Shown: piece by piece, positions 35,191 to 64,000 of the stretch
Layout: each line of letters begins with the position of its first letter
How positions within the stretch are numbered: position 1 is the stretch's first letter
Assembly: GCF_900129655.1 (NCBI RefSeq)
Contig: NZ_FQWK01000004.1
Span: forward strand, 248,001-312,000
Origin: Bacteroides clarus YIT 12056
GTDB lineage: Bacteria; Bacteroidota; Bacteroidia; Bacteroidales; Bacteroidaceae
Direction of reading: 5' to 3'
Length of the DNA stretch: 64,000 bases
Notes under the pieces: model-generated
Told to the model about the DNA's origin: nothing
The model's input: only the letters and a program-made list of their open reading frames with translations
Database searches by the model: none
Translations under genes and position numbers: made by a program

Positions 35191-35305
35191 CTACCATCAG
35201 GTGGTACTGCTCGTACCAAGGCATGGTACGGAGACTGCCACCCGGTGGTACACCGCGTACCTCAACATGGTACGGTCGGTACCAAGGCATGAAATAAGTT
35301 GGTAC
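35191..35305. repeat. 22-bp periodic GGTAC/GTACC box array 1
   Basis: GGTAC boxes start at 35203, 35225, 35247 and 35269, exactly 22 bp apart. Each is followed after five variable bases by GTACC (35213, 35257, 35279; CTGCC at 35235 is degenerate). A further partial box CTACC lies at 35191. The right end has degenerate GAAAT at 35291 and GGTAC at 35301. Spacers differ between units. It lies in a convergent intergenic region after the xylE terminator. See the finding for details. Confidence 0.85.
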
Positions 35306-35337
35306 ATGCAGTTATTTGATTATAAGCATGCCGTTGC

Positions 35338-57225: not shown

Positions 57226-58632
57226 TTAGAACTGGAAGAACTTCTTAGCGTTGTAGTAGCTGATATCTTCAATCATCTGATTTACGCGTTCCATTTCAGC
57301 AACAGGAATTTCGCCGTTTTCCACATCACGACCTACGAGGTTACACAATGTACGACGGAAATATTCATGACGCGGATAGGAGAGGAAAGAACGTGAGTCT
57401 GTCAACATACCTACGAAACGGCTCAGCAAGCCAAGTACGGAAAGTGCGTTCATTTGCTTTTCCATACCGTCTTTCTGGTCGAGGAACCACCAGCCTGAAC
57501 CGAACTGAATCTTACCGGCAATCGTACCGTCCTGGAAGTTACCCAGCATAGTAGCGATTACTTCATTGGCACACGGGTTCAGATTATAAAGAATGGTCTT
57601 GGTCAGTTTGCCTGCCGAATTCAAGCGGTCGAGGAACTTAGCCATTGCTTTAGCGGTAGTAAACTCACCGATAGAGTCAAAACCGGTGTCAGGGCCGAGC
57701 AACTTGAACATTTTACTGTTGTTGTTGCGGATGGCTCCATAGTGGAATTGCTGTGTCCAGCCCTTCTCCCAATCCATTTCACCAAAGGCAATCAGCATAG
57801 CCGACTTGAACTTCAGGATTTCTTCCTTGGTCAATTCGGCGCCGCCATACACTTTATTGAAGATTGCCTTGATTTCCGCATCCGTATAATCTTCCGCATA
57901 GAATTCTTCGATACCATGGTCGGACAGTTTACATCCTTGAGCGGCGAAGAAGTCATGACGCTTGCGCAAAGCGGCAATCATATCGTCGAAAGTAGAAATA
58001 GCCACACCGCTCACTTCCGCCAGCTTCTCTACATAAGTGCGGAAATCAGCAGGAACTTCTACCGCCATCGCCTTGTCGGGACGCCAAGTAGGCAACATCT
58101 TGATTTCAAAGCCGCTTTCACGGGTCTTGATATGATATTCCAGTGAATCGACGGGGTCATCGGTCGTACAAACAGCTTCCACGTTATAACGGCGCATCAT
58201 GCCGCGAGCCGAGTATTCGGGTTGTTTCAGCTTCTCGTTACATTCGTCATAGATTTCACGTGCGGTTTTAGGGTTCAAAATCTTGTCGATGCCGAATGCA
58301 GTCTTCAATTCCAAGTGCGTCCAGTGGTACAAAGGATTACGGAAAGTATAAGGTACGGTTTCCGCCCATTTCTCGAACTTTTCCCAATCGGTGGTGTCCT
58401 TACCGGTGCAGAAACGTTCGTCCACGCCGTTGGTACGCATTGCGCGCCATTTGTAGTGGTCGCCACCCAACCAGATTTCCGTCAGTGACTTGAATTGGTA
58501 ATCGTCTGCTACCATTTGTGGAATTAAGTGACAGTGATAGTCGATAATCGGCATTTTAGCCGCATGTTCGTGGTACAACTTCTGTGCGGTTTCTGTCTGC
58601 AACAGGAAGTTCTCGTCCATAAAGTTTTTCAT
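57226..58632 (-). CDS. uxaC: Glucuronate/galacturonate isomerase
   Basis: Converts D-glucuronate to fructuronate and D-galacturonate to tagaturonate. At 468 residues it has UxaC length. The N-terminal metal motif is MPIIDYHCHLIPQMVADDYQF, then WLGGDHYKWRAMRTNGVDE, VCTTDDPVDSLEYH, MLPTWRPDKAM and the C-terminal TDSRSFLSYPRHEYFRR. It is transcribed away from the LacI regulator gene. With uxaB nearby it gives the first two steps of galacturonate breakdown. Altronate dehydratase (uxaA) is not in the window. Confidence 0.95.
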   Translation of the reverse strand: MKNFMDENFLLQTETAQKLYHEHAAKMPIIDYHCHLIPQMVADDYQFKSLTEIWLGGDHYKWRAMRTNGVDERFCTGKDTTDWEKFEKWAETVPYTFRNPLYHWTHLELKTAFGIDKILNPKTAREIYDECNEKLKQPEYSARGMMRRYNVEAVCTTDDPVDSLEYHIKTRESGFEIKMLPTWRPDKAMAVEVPADFRTYVEKLAEVSGVAISTFDDMIAALRKRHDFFAAQGCKLSDHGIEEFYAEDYTDAEIKAIFNKVYGGAELTKEEILKFKSAMLIAFGEMDWEKGWTQQFHYGAIRNNNSKMFKLLGPDTGFDSIGEFTTAKAMAKFLDRLNSAGKLTKTILYNLNPCANEVIATMLGNFQDGTIAGKIQFGSGWWFLDQKDGMEKQMNALSVLGLLSRFVGMLTDSRSFLSYPRHEYFRRTLCNLVGRDVENGEIPVAEMERVNQMIEDISYYNAKKFFQF

Positions 58633-58749
58633 CTTCTTGTGTTTTAAGTATCTAAAAAAATTACTTTCTTGTTATTACACCTATATAGTATTGATTGTAA
58701 AGCTGATAGGCCTGATAAGGCTTTTTGCTTTTATTAACCGTTATCGAAC

Positions 58750-58798
58750 ACAAAAGTAGAAATTTTACTTGGAGAAACAAAATAATTCGTATCTTTGC
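58750..58798. promoter_or_regulatory. Overlapping divergent promoters of uxaC and the LacI gene
   Basis: Minus strand: TTTG (58778-58781) and TACTTTTGT (58750-58758) with 19 bp between them drive uxaC. Plus strand: CTTG (58768-58771) and TATCTTTGC (58790-58798) with 18 bp between them drive the regulator. The promoters interlock, so one bound regulator could control both directions. Confidence 0.7.
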
Positions 58799-58862
58799 GG
58801 CAAATATTTATAATATTTAAGTTTTGAACGTAAGACCTTTAAACGCCTTTAGGTAGGAGAGA

Positions 58863-59924
58863 ATGGAAAACAAGAATTATACGATAAAGGACATTGCACG
58901 TATGGCAGGCGTGTCTGCCGGAACTGTAGACCGTGTGCTCCATAACCGGGGCGACGTATCCCGCGCAAGCAGAGAAAAGGTTCAGAAAGTTCTTGATGAA
59001 ATAGATTATCATCCCAATATGTTTGCCATAGGTCTGGCGGCCAAAAAGCGTTATCATGTGGTATGTATCATACCTTATTATATAGAGCATGATTACTGGC
59101 ATTCCGTGGCGCAGGGAATAGACCGCGCCGCGCAGGAAATGCGTCCGTTCAACGTAGGCGTGGATTACCTGTTTTACAGCCATGCAAACAAGCCTTCTTA
59201 TCAAGAGGCATGCACGCGGCTTCAATCCGAGTCCGTCGATGCGGTATTGATTGCTCCGAATTTTCAGGACGATACTTTGAAACTGACATCGTATCTGGAA
59301 AGCAAGAATATACCTTACGCCTTTATCGACTTCAACATGGAGCAGACCCATGCTTTATGTTATATAGGCCAGGACTCTCAGGTCAGCGGATACATTGCGG
59401 CCAAGATACTGATGCGCCGTTACCGGGAAGGCCAGGAGCTGGTGCTTTTCCTGAACAACCAAAAGAACAGCCCCGCCGAGGTGCAGATGCAACGCCGCCT
59501 GGAAGGTTTTATGCAATACCTTGCCGCCGAGCACCGGAATCTGATTGTACACGACTTTGTTCTCCACAAAGAAAACACCGACGCTAATGAAAAGCAGCTG
59601 GATACTTTCTTTGCCGAACATCCCAAAGTCGCTTTAGGAGCCGTCTTCAACTCTCGCGTATATCAAGTGGCAGGCTACTTGCAGAGAAAGAAGCAAAAGC
59701 TGGACGCGCTGGTAGGTTACGACCTGCTTCAAAAGAATGTGGAATACCTGAAAAGCGGCGAGGTGAACTATCTCATCGGACAACGCCCCGGATTGCAAGG
59801 ATATTGCGGCGTTAAAGCGTTATGCAATCACATCGTATTCAAGAAGCCGGTGACTGCCGTAAAGTATATGCCCATCGACGTTCTGATGAAAGAAAACATC
59901 GACTTCTACTTCGAATTCGAGTAG
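58863..59924 (+). CDS. LacI family transcriptional regulator
   Basis: A 353-residue DNA-binding regulator. The N-terminal HTH and hinge are YTIKDIARMAGVSAGTVDRVLHNRGDVSRASREKVQKVLDEIDYHPNMFA; the effector domain from about 62 on is periplasmic-binding-protein-like (VCIIPYYIEHDYWHSVAQGIDRAAQ, CYIGQDSQVSGYIAAKILM). It differs from classic sugar-phosphate regulators by its length of the C-terminal part and by the last residues. By position between uxaC and uxaB it probably senses a hexuronate or its product and controls these genes. Confidence 0.9.
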   Translation: MENKNYTIKDIARMAGVSAGTVDRVLHNRGDVSRASREKVQKVLDEIDYHPNMFAIGLAAKKRYHVVCIIPYYIEHDYWHSVAQGIDRAAQEMRPFNVGVDYLFYSHANKPSYQEACTRLQSESVDAVLIAPNFQDDTLKLTSYLESKNIPYAFIDFNMEQTHALCYIGQDSQVSGYIAAKILMRRYREGQELVLFLNNQKNSPAEVQMQRRLEGFMQYLAAEHRNLIVHDFVLHKENTDANEKQLDTFFAEHPKVALGAVFNSRVYQVAGYLQRKKQKLDALVGYDLLQKNVEYLKSGEVNYLIGQRPGLQGYCGVKALCNHIVFKKPVTAVKYMPIDVLMKENIDFYFEFE

Positions 59925-59942
59925 TTCCCCAAGCATCGTACA

Positions 59943-59985
59943 ATTTAAATCATAATCCATAAATCATAATTAAAATCAGTTTTAA
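59943..59985 (+). repeat. AAATCATAAT direct repeat before uxaB
   Basis: AAATCATAAT occurs at 59947-59956 and 59961-59970, with related AATCC/AAATC sequence around it. The repeats fill the gap between the regulator gene and uxaB, as in the leaders of xylB and ileS. Confidence 0.55.
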
Positions 59986-59986
59986 G

Positions 59987-61465
59987 ATGAAAGCATTAAA
60001 CAAACAGACGGCTCCCAAGTCCGTTGCTCCCGAGCGAATTATCCAATTCGGTGAAGGTAACTTCCTTCGTGCATTTGTAGACTGGATTGTTTACAACATG
60101 AATCAGAAAACCGACTTCAACAGTAGCGTTGTAGTGGTTCAGCCCATAGAAAGAGGTATGGCAGAATGGCTGAACGGCCAGGACTGTCTTTACCACGTCA
60201 ATCTGCAAGGCCGTCTGAACGGTGAGGCTGTCAACAGCCTCACGCGTATCGACTGTATCAGCCGCGCATTGAATCCGTACTCTCAAAACTCCGCATTCAT
60301 GGCGCTTGCCGACCAGCCCGAGATACGTTTCGTTATCTCCAACACAACGGAAGCCGGTATTGCATTCGACCCGAATTGCAAATTCACCGACGCTCCCGCA
60401 TCGTCTTATCCGGGCAAACTGACTCAGCTTCTGTACCGTCGTTTCAAAACTTTCAAGGGCGACAAGAGCAAAGGTCTTATCATCATGCCTTGCGAATTGA
60501 TTTTCCTGAACGGCCATCACCTGAAAGAATGCATCTATCAGTACATCGAACTGTGGAAAGACGACTTCGGCGCAGATTACGAGAAGTTCAAGACCTGGTT
60601 CACAAAGTACTGCTACGTATGCGCTACTCTGGTAGACCGTATCGTTCCGGGCTTCCCGCGTAAGGAAATCGCGCAGATTCAGAAGAAAATCTGTTATGCC
60701 GACAACTTGGTTGTACAGGCCGAAATCTTCCATCTGTGGGTTATCGAAGCTGCCGAGAACCTCTCTCTCCGCCAGTTGGCAGAGGAATTCCCCGCAAACA
60801 AGGCAGGCATGAACGTACTCTTCGTGAAGTCCGAGGCTCCTTACCACGAAAGAAAGGTAACCTTGCTGAACGGTCCTCACACCGTGCTTTCTCCGGTGGC
60901 TTACCTCAGTGGCGTAAACATCGTGCGCGACGCCTGTAACCACCCTGTTATCGGCAAGTACGTCCGCAAAGTACAGTTCGACGAACTGATGCAGACATTG
61001 AATCTGCCCATGGACGAATTGAAGAAATTCGCCGCCGATGTATTGGAACGTTTCGACAATCCTTACGTAGAACATCAGGTGACCAGCATCATGCTGAACT
61101 CCTTCCCGAAATACCAAACCCGCGACCTGCCGGGCTTGAAGACTTATCTGGAACGCAAAGGCGAACTTCCGAAAGGACTCGTGCTCGGTCTTGCCGCCAT
61201 CATCACATATTATAAGGGCGGTGTGCGTGCCGACGGTGCGGAAATCACTCCGAACGACGCTCCCGAAATCATGCAATTACTGAAAGACCTTTGGGCGACA
61301 GGCGACACCCGCAAAGTAGCGGAAGGCGTATTGGCAGCCAAAGACCTTATTTGGGGCGAACACGGGGACTTGAACACCATCCCGGGATTAACGGATATGG
61401 TTACCGGTTTCTTGAACTCCATTCAAGAAAAGGGTATGCTGGAAACAGTGAAAGGTATTCTCTAA
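59987..61465 (+). CDS. uxaB: Tagaturonate reductase (altronate oxidoreductase)
   Basis: Reduces tagaturonate to altronate with NADH. The 492-residue long-chain mannitol dehydrogenase-type protein has APERIIQFGEGNFLRAFVDWIVYNM at the N-terminus, FVISNTTEAGIAFD, the catalytic Lys region LVDRIVPGFPRKE, and KVTLLNGPHTVLSPVAYLSG. It follows the regulator gene by 62 bp and lies on the opposite strand from uxaC. The codon use is biased as in highly expressed genes. Confidence 0.93.
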   Translation: MKALNKQTAPKSVAPERIIQFGEGNFLRAFVDWIVYNMNQKTDFNSSVVVVQPIERGMAEWLNGQDCLYHVNLQGRLNGEAVNSLTRIDCISRALNPYSQNSAFMALADQPEIRFVISNTTEAGIAFDPNCKFTDAPASSYPGKLTQLLYRRFKTFKGDKSKGLIIMPCELIFLNGHHLKECIYQYIELWKDDFGADYEKFKTWFTKYCYVCATLVDRIVPGFPRKEIAQIQKKICYADNLVVQAEIFHLWVIEAAENLSLRQLAEEFPANKAGMNVLFVKSEAPYHERKVTLLNGPHTVLSPVAYLSGVNIVRDACNHPVIGKYVRKVQFDELMQTLNLPMDELKKFAADVLERFDNPYVEHQVTSIMLNSFPKYQTRDLPGLKTYLERKGELPKGLVLGLAAIITYYKGGVRADGAEITPNDAPEIMQLLKDLWATGDTRKVAEGVLAAKDLIWGEHGDLNTIPGLTDMVTGFLNSIQEKGMLETVKGIL

Positions 61466-61488
61466 ACAAGAACCGATATATAACGAAA

Positions 61489-61528
61489 GAAAACAGGGTA
61501 AGACTTCGGTTTTACCCTGTTTTTTATA
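61489..61528 (+). terminator. Terminator after uxaB
   Basis: AAACAGGGTAA (61491-61501) pairs with TTACCCTGTTT (61512-61522), enclosing a TTCG-containing loop, and is followed by a T run. Confidence 0.85.
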
Positions 61529-61627
61529 CCTGCCACACTAAATATAACAGTAGTTATATGATGCCCGGCCGACTTTTTTCATGTACCTTTACCAGATAAT
61601 ACATATTCATTAAAATCCGAACAAATA

Positions 61628-62062
61628 ATGGAAAACAACTCCGACTTAAACAACCAGGCAGCCCGATACACCCTATGCTTCAACGACTGCTGCGCTAAGG
61701 CCGAAAGCTGCTTGCGACACAGTATGACACAATACAATACGGCGAAAAACATCCGACTGTCCGTTATCAATCCCCTCTGTTATCCGGAAGCGGGAAAGGA
61801 ATGCCCGCATTTCCGTACAAACAAGAAGATACGGGTAGCGTGGGGTTTCAAAAACCTGTACGATGACATGCCCGCACGCATTTCCCGCGCCATCCACCTC
61901 AATTTGGAAGCCGTCTTCAATCATTCTCCCTATTACCGATACCGCAATCAAAAGTTGGGACTTACTCCGAAGCAACAGGAATGTATCCGCCAAGTGTGCA
62001 GGAAACATGGTTGGAACAAGGAGATCGCTTTCGACCGATACACCGAAGAATACGACTGGTAG
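61628..62062 (+). CDS. DUF6078-like small cysteine-rich protein
   Basis: A 144-residue soluble protein. The N-terminal part has a Cys-rich pattern CFNDCCAKAESCLRH and later CYPEAGKECPHF, which may bind a metal. The C-terminal half (KNLYDDMPARISRAIHLNLEAVFNHSPYYRYRNQKLGLTPKQQECIRQVCRKHGW) looks helical with a DNA-binding-like region. I recall this family as DUF6078 in Bacteroides, without known function. No operon partners; the GGTAC array follows it. Confidence 0.6.
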   Translation: MENNSDLNNQAARYTLCFNDCCAKAESCLRHSMTQYNTAKNIRLSVINPLCYPEAGKECPHFRTNKKIRVAWGFKNLYDDMPARISRAIHLNLEAVFNHSPYYRYRNQKLGLTPKQQECIRQVCRKHGWNKEIAFDRYTEEYDW

Positions 62063-62122
62063 GCATCCCGCCCGCGTTTCCCTGCGGAACCGCCGATTTT
62101 CTCCCGCATGATATTTTAATTT

Positions 62123-62256
62123 CCAACGGTTGGTACAAGGAATACCAACCGTTGGTACGTCTTGTACCTTACTATGGTACACGTCGTACCACAGTAGGGT
62201 ACAGGCCGTACCACGCTGAGGTACGGGACGTACCAAAGGCAGGAACTCCCTGGTAC
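62123..62256. repeat. 22-bp periodic GGTAC/GTACC box array 2
   Basis: GGTAC boxes start at 62132, 62154, 62176, 62198 and 62220, exactly 22 bp apart, and GGAAC at 62242 continues the series. Each is followed after five variable bases by GTACC (62164, 62186, 62208, 62230; ATACC at 62142). The last position (62252) has GGTAC. The left end has a perfect 13-bp hairpin, CCAACGGTTGGTA (62123-62135) with TACCAACCGTTGG (62143-62155). It lies between two genes in the same direction. Confidence 0.85.
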
Positions 62257-62314
62257 ATACACAGGTCTGATAGACAGTGAAGTATACAATATGAATTTGC
62301 GAACATATTTTTCC

Positions 62315-62323
62315 TATCTTTGT
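62315..62323 (+). promoter_or_regulatory. Predicted -7 box for the small membrane protein
   Basis: TATCTTTGT lies 36 bp before the ATG at 62359. TTTG at 62296-62299 is only 15 bp upstream, so the -33 match is weak. Confidence 0.45.
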
Positions 62324-62358
62324 TCCCTGTATCAGTAAGATTACCCAAATATAGAAAA

Positions 62359-62811
62359 ATGAAATACGGAGTAAACAGGAAAGTATTGCTTATCACCGCC
62401 GGAATCGTGTGGATGGCAGCCGGAGCCAATATCCTCCGGATAGGAATCGTGACATGGCTGACGGATTCACAATATTGGCTGTTCAAGATAGGAGAGGCTA
62501 CGGTTGTATTTCTTCTGTTCTTTTTGCTGGTCTTCAAGAAACTCTACTACAAGCACACCAAACGTATCGAACAAAAAAAGAAAGAGAAGAATTGCCCTTT
62601 TTCTTTCTTCGATGTAAAAGGTTGGATTGTAATGGTCTTTATGATAACGTTCGGCATTACGATACGCTCGTTCCATTTATTGCCGGACGCGTTTATTTCG
62701 GTATTCTATACCGGGCTTTCGCTTGCACTCATGTCCACCGGGGTATTGTTTATACGCTATTGGTGGGTAAGCAGAAAAAGCAATCTGCTTACTCCGCCGC
62801 CCGAAGAATGA
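62359..62811 (+). CDS. Small membrane protein of unknown function
   Basis: The ATG at 62359 is used; the upstream TTG at 62320 lies in the promoter. The 150-residue protein has four predicted membrane helices (about 8-28, 42-62, 92-112, 118-140) with a Lys-rich cytoplasmic loop (YYKHTKRIEQKKKEKN) between the second and third. I do not recognise the family. The last 23 bp overlap the end of the FHA gene on the other strand. The GGTAC array lies directly upstream. Confidence 0.65.
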   Translation: MKYGVNRKVLLITAGIVWMAAGANILRIGIVTWLTDSQYWLFKIGEATVVFLLFFLLVFKKLYYKHTKRIEQKKKEKNCPFSFFDVKGWIVMVFMITFGITIRSFHLLPDAFISVFYTGLSLALMSTGVLFIRYWWVSRKSNLLTPPPEE

Positions 62812-63310
62812 AGGTGGTGGCGCCGATGGTTACAATAGCTCCGTCCTCAATACGGACACGGTCTTTATCGCCCAGAATTTCATTGTTAAGGAAAGTACCC
62901 GTCAGGCTCGGAGCGTCACGCAGCGTATAAACGAGTTTGCCCTGCTTGTTGCGTTTCACGTTGATAACACAGTGGTTGCGGTCCATGCTCATATCCGAGG
63001 TTTCTATCGGGACATTGATAACCGTTCCTACGCAGCGACGGCCTATCTTATTGTCGCCCTCTTGCAAAGGCAGCACTTGCTTGAAGCCAAAGACATTCTC
63101 AATGACCGTAATGTTTCCGAAAGCTTCCTTGTATTCGGTCTCGTCCGGATTCTCTTCTTTCTGCGGCGCTTTCATTTTCGTCTTGCCCAAACGTATGCTG
63201 AATTGCTTTTTGCAGTTCTCGCAAACAAACACCAAGGACTGGCCTTCCGTGTATTTTGTTTCGTCGAAAGTCAGATAGTTCTCACATTTGGGGCAACGGA
63301 TACGTTTCAT
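62789..63310 (-). CDS. FHA domain protein with N-terminal zinc ribbon
   Basis: A 173-residue cytoplasmic protein. The N-terminal part is a zinc ribbon with two Cys pairs (CPKC and CENC, about residues 5-36), similar to MJ0042-type fingers. The C-terminal part (about 80-170) is an FHA domain (KIGRRCVGTVINVPIETSDMSMDRNHCVI with the conserved Gly-Arg, Ser and Asn-His; later NNEILGDKDRVRIEDGAIVTIG). FHA domains bind phospho-threonine, so it probably works with a Ser/Thr kinase not seen in the window. It lies 45 bp after the SPOR protein gene. Confidence 0.87.
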   Translation of the reverse strand: MKRIRCPKCENYLTFDETKYTEGQSLVFVCENCKKQFSIRLGKTKMKAPQKEENPDETEYKEAFGNITVIENVFGFKQVLPLQEGDNKIGRRCVGTVINVPIETSDMSMDRNHCVINVKRNKQGKLVYTLRDAPSLTGTFLNNEILGDKDRVRIEDGAIVTIGATTFILRAAE

Positions 63311-63355
63311 TGAATTGATGGATAGTTGGTAATTAATAATTCGCTATGGAGAAAG

Positions 63356-64000
63356 TCATCTTTTCAGCACCCAGGCGTTCTGAAACGCTTCATCCTGACG
63401 AATCTTGTTTAAAGCGCGATAGGCTTCCGCTTCTGTGGCGCACGACTGAATGCTGACACGCATTTTGCCGTCACCGATAATCGCTTTGGCGCCGGCATGG
63501 CCTTTGGCAATCAACCGCTGCGCCATGGCATCGGCATCCTTTTCGGTTCCTACGCTGGCAATGATGATATGGTAAGGCGTCTTGGCGGCCTGAACGACAG
63601 AAACGGCAGCTGTCGTTTCCGTTTTAGGCTGAACGGGAGCCGCTGCGGACTGCCGGCGGACTTTCACTTCTTTCACGGCAACAGGGGCGACGACTTTTTT
63701 ACCCGCAGACTGCGACAAGCCGGTTTGAGAGGCTTTCGCCTTCTTAGCGGTTGCCTGCTGATGAACGACAATCGGAGTAATAACCAGCGATTGCTTTTCT
63801 ATCTGCTCGAATAACTCACCGGGCAGCAGACGGGCATAGTTGGCCTCCACCACTTCCGTATTCTCTATGGGCGCGGAAAAGAAGAAGAACAGAGCCACAA
63901 TGGCAATCATGGCAACCGCATTGGTCAGATAAGAGGGGTTGATACGAATCTCGTACTTACGCTTCTTTTCTTCCCGGACAACGGGTGCGAAAGGAATGGT
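63356..64000 (-). CDS. SPOR domain protein with membrane anchor (5' partial)
   Basis: The frame is open to the right edge, so the start lies outside the window. The visible part begins with a basic stretch (KKRKYEIRINPSYLTNAVA), then a membrane segment (MIAIVALFFFFSA), a Lys/Ala-rich linker (about 50-110) and a SPOR domain at the end (YHIIIASVGTEKDADAMAQRLIAKGHAGAKAI...SIQSCATEAEAYRALNKIRQ). SPOR domains bind peptidoglycan stripped of peptides at the division site. Similar Bacteroides proteins have an N-terminal HU-like domain, which would be in the missing part. The gene precedes the FHA gene and may share a transcript. Confidence 0.85.
   Translation of the reverse strand, partial: TIPFAPVVREEKKRKYEIRINPSYLTNAVAMIAIVALFFFFSAPIENTEVVEANYARLLPGELFEQIEKQSLVITPIVVHQQATAKKAKASQTGLSQSAGKKVVAPVAVKEVKVRRQSAAAPVQPKTETTAAVSVVQAAKTPYHIIIASVGTEKDADAMAQRLIAKGHAGAKAIIGDGKMRVSIQSCATEAEAYRALNKIRQDEAFQNAWVLKR

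Follow-up and report, generated by a model that had tools for sequence, protein, structure and literature searches.

What is a strictly periodic run of short inverted boxes in the chromosome of Bacteroides clarus YIT 12056, and is it read as DNA or as RNA? The initial annotation of the stretch of DNA analysed here (64 kb, hereafter the window) described such an array and proposed either a ladder of dimer-binding sites or a chain of RNA hairpins. These proved to be the right candidates, but the array does not stand in isolation. Our results show that it belongs to a family of 22-bp two-box repeats that is dispersed between genes in Bacteroides and conserved locus by locus.

Structure of the arrays

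By direct reading, the array in the window comprises five GGTAC-N5-RTACC units that repeat exactly every 22 bp. Its parts, and those of a second array in the window, are as follows.

62120..62131, no strand: degenerate leading box TTTCC (62120-62124, ahead of unit 1) with the palindromic spacer AACGGTT, by direct reading; spacer and partner change together between species
62132..62146, no strand: unit 1, GGTAC AAGGA ATACC
62154..62168, no strand: unit 2, GGTAC GTCTT GTACC
62176..62190, no strand: unit 3, GGTAC ACGTC GTACC
62198..62212, no strand: unit 4, GGTAC AGGCC GTACC
62220..62234, no strand: unit 5, GGTAC GGGAC GTACC
62242..62256, + strand: polar terminal half-unit GGAAC TCCCT GGTAC, the second box direct, not inverted
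62257..62278, + strand: diverged copy of a tail common to other arrays, consensus about NTGTATCTNTTTGATTATAAG, from the 19-locus tail statistic
35203..35283, no strand: second array of the same family, four units, shared at its locus with two further species (L105, L121)
35291..35326, + strand: terminal half-unit GAAAT AAGTT GGTAC of the second array, with tail ATGCAGTTATTTGATTATAAG

Direct reading confirmed the GGTAC boxes recorded at 62132, 62154, 62176, 62198 and 62220, the RTACC box 10 bp after each of them (ATACC in unit 1, GTACC in units 2-5), and the statement that the N5 and N7 spacers differ in every unit. GGAAC is present at 62242, and the box that starts 10 bp after it reads GGTAC (62252) instead of GTACC. 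One statement needed correction: the 15-bp palindrome ascribed to every unit is imperfect in unit 1 (GGTAC..ATACC).

The two-unit pattern with up to three mismatches had 7 matches in the window: 4, overlapping one another, in the window array and 3 at 35203-35283. Shuffled sequence had been proposed as a control; no match occurred in 100 dinucleotide-preserving shuffles of the window. Tandem Repeats Finder reported no more than a weak 22-bp array (score 60), because the spacers differ between units. Downstream of the window array, 62296-62322 reads TTTG ... TATCTTTG ahead of a + strand gene at 62359, and we take this to be the Bacteroides-type promoter of that gene.

We then considered the spacing between strong boxes. 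The N5 gap was exactly 5 in 276/327 steps, with two near misses (2 or 7), and the N7 gap was exactly 7 in 274/351 steps, with seven near misses (5, 6 or 8); most arrays were found through the box pattern in 22-bp register, so that spacing, like box conservation, is partly ascertained. Larger steps, at 17-18, 27 and 29, mostly corresponded to a skipped weak box or to the terminal half-unit. The strict gaps favour a ladder of sites, because the linkers of RNA hairpins need no fixed length.

The arrays have a polarity. On one strand, position 5 of the left box is variable and its partner remains G; this asymmetry was concordant within arrays (162/193 vs 141 expected by shuffling). A terminal half-unit with a direct GGTAC followed by the tail was also seen in many arrays of the GGTAC type, its expression being matched by 39/74 arrays (35 had no match) and by 10 of the 16 arrays listed for the own genome. 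Over 22 positions at 19 independent loci, the tail held 11.2 bits, against a mean of 2.1 and a maximum of 3.65 among 2000 shifted controls; this statistic covers arrays matching the terminal expression, with 5 MAG rows left out of the 19 loci. At the array end opposite the tail, which was present at 19 loci, no conserved module was identified. A replication-strand rule for the polarity was rejected: dnaA lies at base 376 of the relatives G443 and G355, and array polarity did not visibly follow local GC skew (judged by eye and unscored).

Copies in the genome and their gene contexts

The two-unit pattern was present at 67 places in the own genome (3.75 Mb) with up to three mismatches, and at 36 exact places with GGTAY/RTACC boxes, compared with 0 for the reversed control pattern. 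At least 16 arrays of 4 to 7 units each were found, with 90 units in the 16 listed. The gapped-pattern search of Bacteroidales genomes that the initial annotation had suggested returned further arrays in relatives, Prevotella and Bacteroidales MAGs. By gene calls made here, 16/16 listed own-genome arrays were intergenic, although the end of the L020 array overlaps the next gene by a few bases.

Five of these 16 arrays lay between convergent, five between divergent and six between co-directional gene pairs. A Pfam scan of 30 of the 32 nearest neighbour proteins revealed no common function; five had no Pfam hit, and none of the 30 was a transposase. The neighbours included a sugar transporter, a phosphodiesterase, PhoU with an ABC ATPase, ClpB with gyrase A, and trigger factor, as well as RmuC with an M24 peptidase, a MutS-like protein, a SusD-like protein, a TonB receptor and glycosidases. 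With every gene orientation represented and neighbours that are unrelated, no single transcript position or regulon fits the 16 arrays.

Conservation, loss and length change at the same loci

The window locus was recovered by whole-locus similarity, not by the box pattern, in Bacteroides propionicigenes NSJ-90 (G378), G443, G022 and G355, and the array was present in 4/4; among the loci, it alone is free of box-pattern ascertainment in relatives. Against the four recovered stretches (L037-L040), box identity was 98, 92, 85 and 85%, compared with flank identity of 79, 61, 45 and 45%, and no gap fell inside the array.

The flanks of 53 stretches from five relatives were compared with the own-genome array loci. 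The results showed that 40 had a match and 13 did not (L089, L097, L102, L108, L112-L118, L120 and L123); at these 13 the own genome may be empty, or it may carry arrays beyond the at least 16 listed. All 16 listed own-genome loci were matched in at least one relative, with a maximum of four (window locus, L030). For L020 and L029, the match to G443 borders the array on a single side; L119 matched as a locus but had no array called there. Arrays occupy the same loci in several species and are therefore old.

Substitutions were pooled over 30 of the 40 ortholog pairs, those with flanks at least 60% identical; the other 10, with flanks below 60%, were left out. Boxes were mismatched at 191/1593 sites (12%) and flanks at 863/3217 (27%), and the spacers at 292/795 (37%) for N5 and 285/916 (31%) for N7. 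Array length differences between species often consisted of whole 22-bp units, and gaps in multiples of 22 made up 8/18 of those within arrays vs 3/44 in near flanks.

Certain species lack an array at one locus or another, so a single array is dispensable. At the L026 locus, B. propionicigenes and G022 have no array, and G018, G443 and G355 have one. In G018, boxes of the GAAAC/GTTTC type replace GGTAC/GTACC, representing a box switch at an orthologous locus. Comparison by eye of occupied and empty forms at this one locus revealed no clear inverted ends and no clear target duplication, and loss in B. propionicigenes fits the distribution as well as gain. At the L020 locus, B. propionicigenes has five GAAAC-N5-GTACC units, G355 retains a single GTTCC-N7-GAAAC, and G022, G361, G365 and G014 have none. 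In the corresponding gap between the ABC ATPase and PhoU genes (L020 3755-3935), G000, G443 and G378 carry an array; in G355, G022, G361, G365 and G014 this gap is short. The L158 array is built of non-palindromic GAAAC..GTACC units. At the L032 locus, the array is missing in B. propionicigenes. That genome also has a distinct dispersed repeat, some 37 bp long, which matches part of the L032 left flank (query 2366-2402) at more than 12 places.

Two box alphabets and their spread

The GAAAC-N5-GTTTC-N7 pattern (two units, at most two mismatches) was detected in 77/153 Bacteroides genomes, of which some are noise, since the reversed control was non-zero in 26/153 and sometimes at or above the forward count (e.g. 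G435, 17 vs 15; G032, 7 vs 9). At least 5 places together with a reversed control of 0 were found in 43/153. The pattern reached 104 places in one genome and occurred at 24 in the own genome, with none within the 64-kb window.

The GGTAC pattern with at most two mismatches was found in 4/60 Bacteroides genomes, the own genome included, one of the four having unlike, near-constant spacers. This Bacteroides stretch (G019:C162:15401-15459) carries GGTACAGGTTGTACC units and is unlike the other arrays. At the same threshold, 2/295 genomes of the order matched, again including the own genome; the other was G325, with one place at two mismatches. With loosened boxes, the pattern was present in 5/6 chosen relatives. 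Of the 8 stretches returned by an exact three-unit scan of named genomes, six came from Prevotella or other Bacteroidales MAGs, one was from B. propionicigenes, and one was judged unrelated. The six MAG stretches (L011, L013 and L015-L018) resemble the family, and 5/6 have the terminal half-unit. The stretch judged unrelated, L012 6811-7044 from a Thermoanaerobaculia MAG, is a GGTAC..GTACC 22-bp minisatellite with near-constant spacers.

Three viral contigs (L033, L034 and L035) also match the two-unit pattern; all carry phage-like genes beside GGTAC-N5-GTACC units, and in two of them the units are alike. They were judged unrelated, and a phage origin was rejected.

Symmetry and folding

Symmetry was analysed in 68 GGTAC arrays (366 units) and in 245 GAAAC units from 70 loci. 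The initial annotation had held that each box can pair with either neighbour, which proved true only in part, as symmetry lay around N7 in GGTAC arrays and at the N5 edges in GAAAC arrays. Across N5, the two boxes of the 366 GGTAC units did not covary (z 0.5 at the variable column), and this absence ruled out box pairing as a constraint in GGTAC arrays. Their N5 was not self-complementary (z -2.4), and their N7 was (z 9.0). All three N7 pairs, including the innermost, were symmetric over 298 junctions (z 4.5, 6.2 and 5.4); the values were 1.5, 3.7 and 3.9 over 241 unique junctions and dropped to 0.8-2.6 with each spacer word counted once, the symmetry leaning on a few frequent words (AACSGTT, TTASTAA). 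A hairpin with a loop of one base could not form that innermost pair. In GAAAC arrays, N7 symmetry was not significant (z 1.0-1.3), and the N5 edge bases covaried (124/245 vs 75.5 expected, z 7.2), as would a 6-bp stem with a 3-base loop.

Predicted folding was compared with controls in which the boxes were fixed and the spacers and flanks shuffled. With a z of -2 or lower on at least one strand as the criterion, 8/16 own-genome arrays were predicted to fold more strongly than the controls and the remaining 8 were not; the window array gave z -2.4/-3.5. A paired change was observed around unit 1 between the window and B. propionicigenes. Over stem columns 1-5, the strand signs of G-U vs A-C cells were concordant within arrays (p 0.0014 for GGTAC, p 0.0006 for GAAAC). 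We rejected a G-U wobble rule, since the effect rests on one column, giving p 0.26 without column 5 (GGTAC) and p 0.21 with the sixth pair (GAAAC).

The evidence on DNA versus RNA recognition is therefore split: strict gaps, mixed gene contexts and the innermost N7 symmetry favour recognition of duplex DNA, and stem-edge covariation and folding favour hairpins.

Comparison with known repeat families

A search of window positions 58000-64000 against Rfam gave no family at threshold; the top matches over the array, mir-3138 and mir-50, were far below the cut-off. No such repeat was described in the open-licence literature searched, including PMC5771137 and PMC2267715, both examined by term, in agreement with the initial annotation, which knew of no element of this form. 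The window array belongs to an apparently undescribed interspersed repeat family with a BOX- or BrickBuilt-like build and a geometry of its own.

Porphyromonas gingivalis belongs to the same order as Bacteroides. According to the consulted sections of its description, the BrickBuilt MITE of this species has 19 dispersed intergenic copies in one strain, built of tandem 23-nt units (about two helical turns) with conserved and non-conserved positions, a leader and a tail, and it undergoes whole-unit expansion and contraction at conserved loci (Klein 2015, PMC4596501). The same sections give a direct repeat without spacer regions, a limited host range, and terminal inverted repeats most similar to ISPg1 and ISPg9 (PMC4596501). 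The arrays share with BrickBuilt, so described, the dispersed intergenic tandem units, the pitch of about two turns, the tail and the length change by whole units. They differ in having a 22-bp pitch, inverted boxes and variable N5 and N7 spacers rather than a 23-nt direct repeat without spacers; the inverted two-box design is absent from the consulted description of BrickBuilt. The two families are set apart here by their described design.

The boxB modules of BOX elements are longer than 22 bp. In the consulted parts of their description, the BOX elements of Streptococcus pneumoniae are dispersed, consist of boxA, a variable number of boxB and boxC, carry terminal inverted repeats with target duplications, are predicted to form stem-loops if transcribed, and are proposed to be parasitic (Croucher 2011, PMC3049150). 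On that partial description, dispersal and variable unit number are common to both, the tail may correspond to an end module, and the strict 22-bp pitch with variable spacers sets the present arrays apart.

REP and BIME elements, as far as the consulted text describes them, are short palindromes outside genes that often occur in clusters, show variants of the stem and carry GTAG/CGTC tags (PMC3733652). The arrays resemble them in the first three respects, and neither GTAG nor CGTC was a constant unit end. The RAYT family PF01797 was found in 4/16 genomes (G000, G018, G378 and G012) and not in G443, G355 or G022, and no GGTAC unit lay in the 3.3 kb around the gene (L076-L078). A RAYT-driven REP family was rejected, as G443 and G355, both complete and array-rich, lack the gene and, by eye, a different repeat lies beside it in genomes that have it; the local RAYT transposase is thus unlikely as the mover of the arrays. 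On either side of the RAYT-like Y1 transposase gene of the own genome and two relatives (L076 1450-2060, L077 and L078) lies another family of palindromic repeats (GCCCTGAAAGGGC / CCCGGGGTAACACCCCGGG / AAGGCTTTCAGCCTT).

Plasmid iterons, for example at the R6K and RK2 origins, are binding sites spaced about 22 bp apart, with an AT-rich stretch next to them; they are whole direct repeats at one origin with the Rep gene adjacent. The likeness, several sites at a similar pitch, concerns a possible way of working only, whereas here only inverted boxes are kept, in at least 16 chromosomal copies. CRISPR arrays have identical repeats of roughly 20-50 bp and acquired spacers. The arrays share regular repeats with differing spacers, but CRISPR was rejected because the repeats are 5 bp, the spacers are 5 and 7 bp, and the spacers at the window locus are inherited between species.

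Discussion

Our leading reading, which we hold tentatively and at somewhat less than an even chance, is that the arrays are one-faced ladders of inverted duplex-DNA sites for a putative DNA-binding protein. Such a protein would read the boxes as duplex DNA; with two helical turns per unit, all sites would lie on one face, so that copies of the protein could stack side by side, and the tail might give the ladder a direction. The role would then be structural, in chromosome organisation or in insulation between genes, rather than in one regulon. In favour of this reading are the strict gaps, the slow change of boxes at the window locus, the innermost N7 symmetry and the mixed gene contexts; against it stand the stronger folding of half the own-genome arrays, the N5-edge covariation of GAAAC units, the paired change at unit 1, the non-palindromic units of L158 and the dispensability of single arrays.

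It is possible, though unlikely, that the arrays instead act as a chain of RNA or single-stranded-DNA hairpins, which would probably act on the transcripts next to them, by stabilising, terminating or processing these, or give rise to a small RNA. Such a chain would be consistent with folding stronger than box-preserving shuffles in 8/16 arrays, the covariation at stem edges of GAAAC arrays, whose loop would seem to have three bases, the paired change at unit 1, the strand polarity and the G-U/A-C concordance. However, that concordance is confined to one column, the boxes of GGTAC units do not covary, the linkers have a strict length, 10 of the 16 contexts are convergent (5) or divergent (5), and no Rfam family reached threshold.

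We regard as equally doubtful that the arrays are relics of a BOX- or BrickBuilt-like mobile element without host function, which would have spread with the tail and would now change length by slippage or recombination. Dispersed intergenic copies, a polar tail, whole-unit changes in copy number and absence at some loci are all in keeping with such relics, as are the 13/53 stretches of relatives without a counterpart among the own-genome arrays listed and the same build of BOX and BrickBuilt in the consulted parts of their descriptions. On the other hand, the boxes change less rapidly than the flanks beside them, including at the locus found without the box pattern, many loci are common to several species, 0/30 scanned neighbour proteins is a transposase, and the RAYT gene is missing from two complete array-rich genomes.

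That the arrays serve a classical transcription regulator in the control of the genes on either side is disfavoured and very improbable: inverted sites near promoters would suit a dimeric repressor, but 5/16 arrays lie between convergent genes and the neighbours (among them ClpB, gyrase A, trigger factor, RmuC, PhoU, ABC ATPase, SusD-like, sugar transporter) have no theme, so that a promoter regulon was rejected.

An extension of the duplex-DNA ladder to the whole genus is a bolder proposal, and we consider it improbable. The arrays would then constitute an architectural code of polar two-turn ladders at fixed intergenic addresses, with a lineage-specific box alphabet (GGTAC or GAAAC) and a co-evolving putative protein that polymerises on one helix face, by which the chromosome would be organised or insulated.

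Bacteroides are major gut bacteria, and this repeat family was not found described in the open-licence literature searched. If the arrays are relics of mobile elements, they would provide a natural series of alleles, matched by locus and counted in units, that could serve strain typing and help to follow the birth and death of short repeats in genomes. If the ladders bind protein, they would mark fixed chromosomal addresses and offer a direct handle on a nucleoid or insulation factor.
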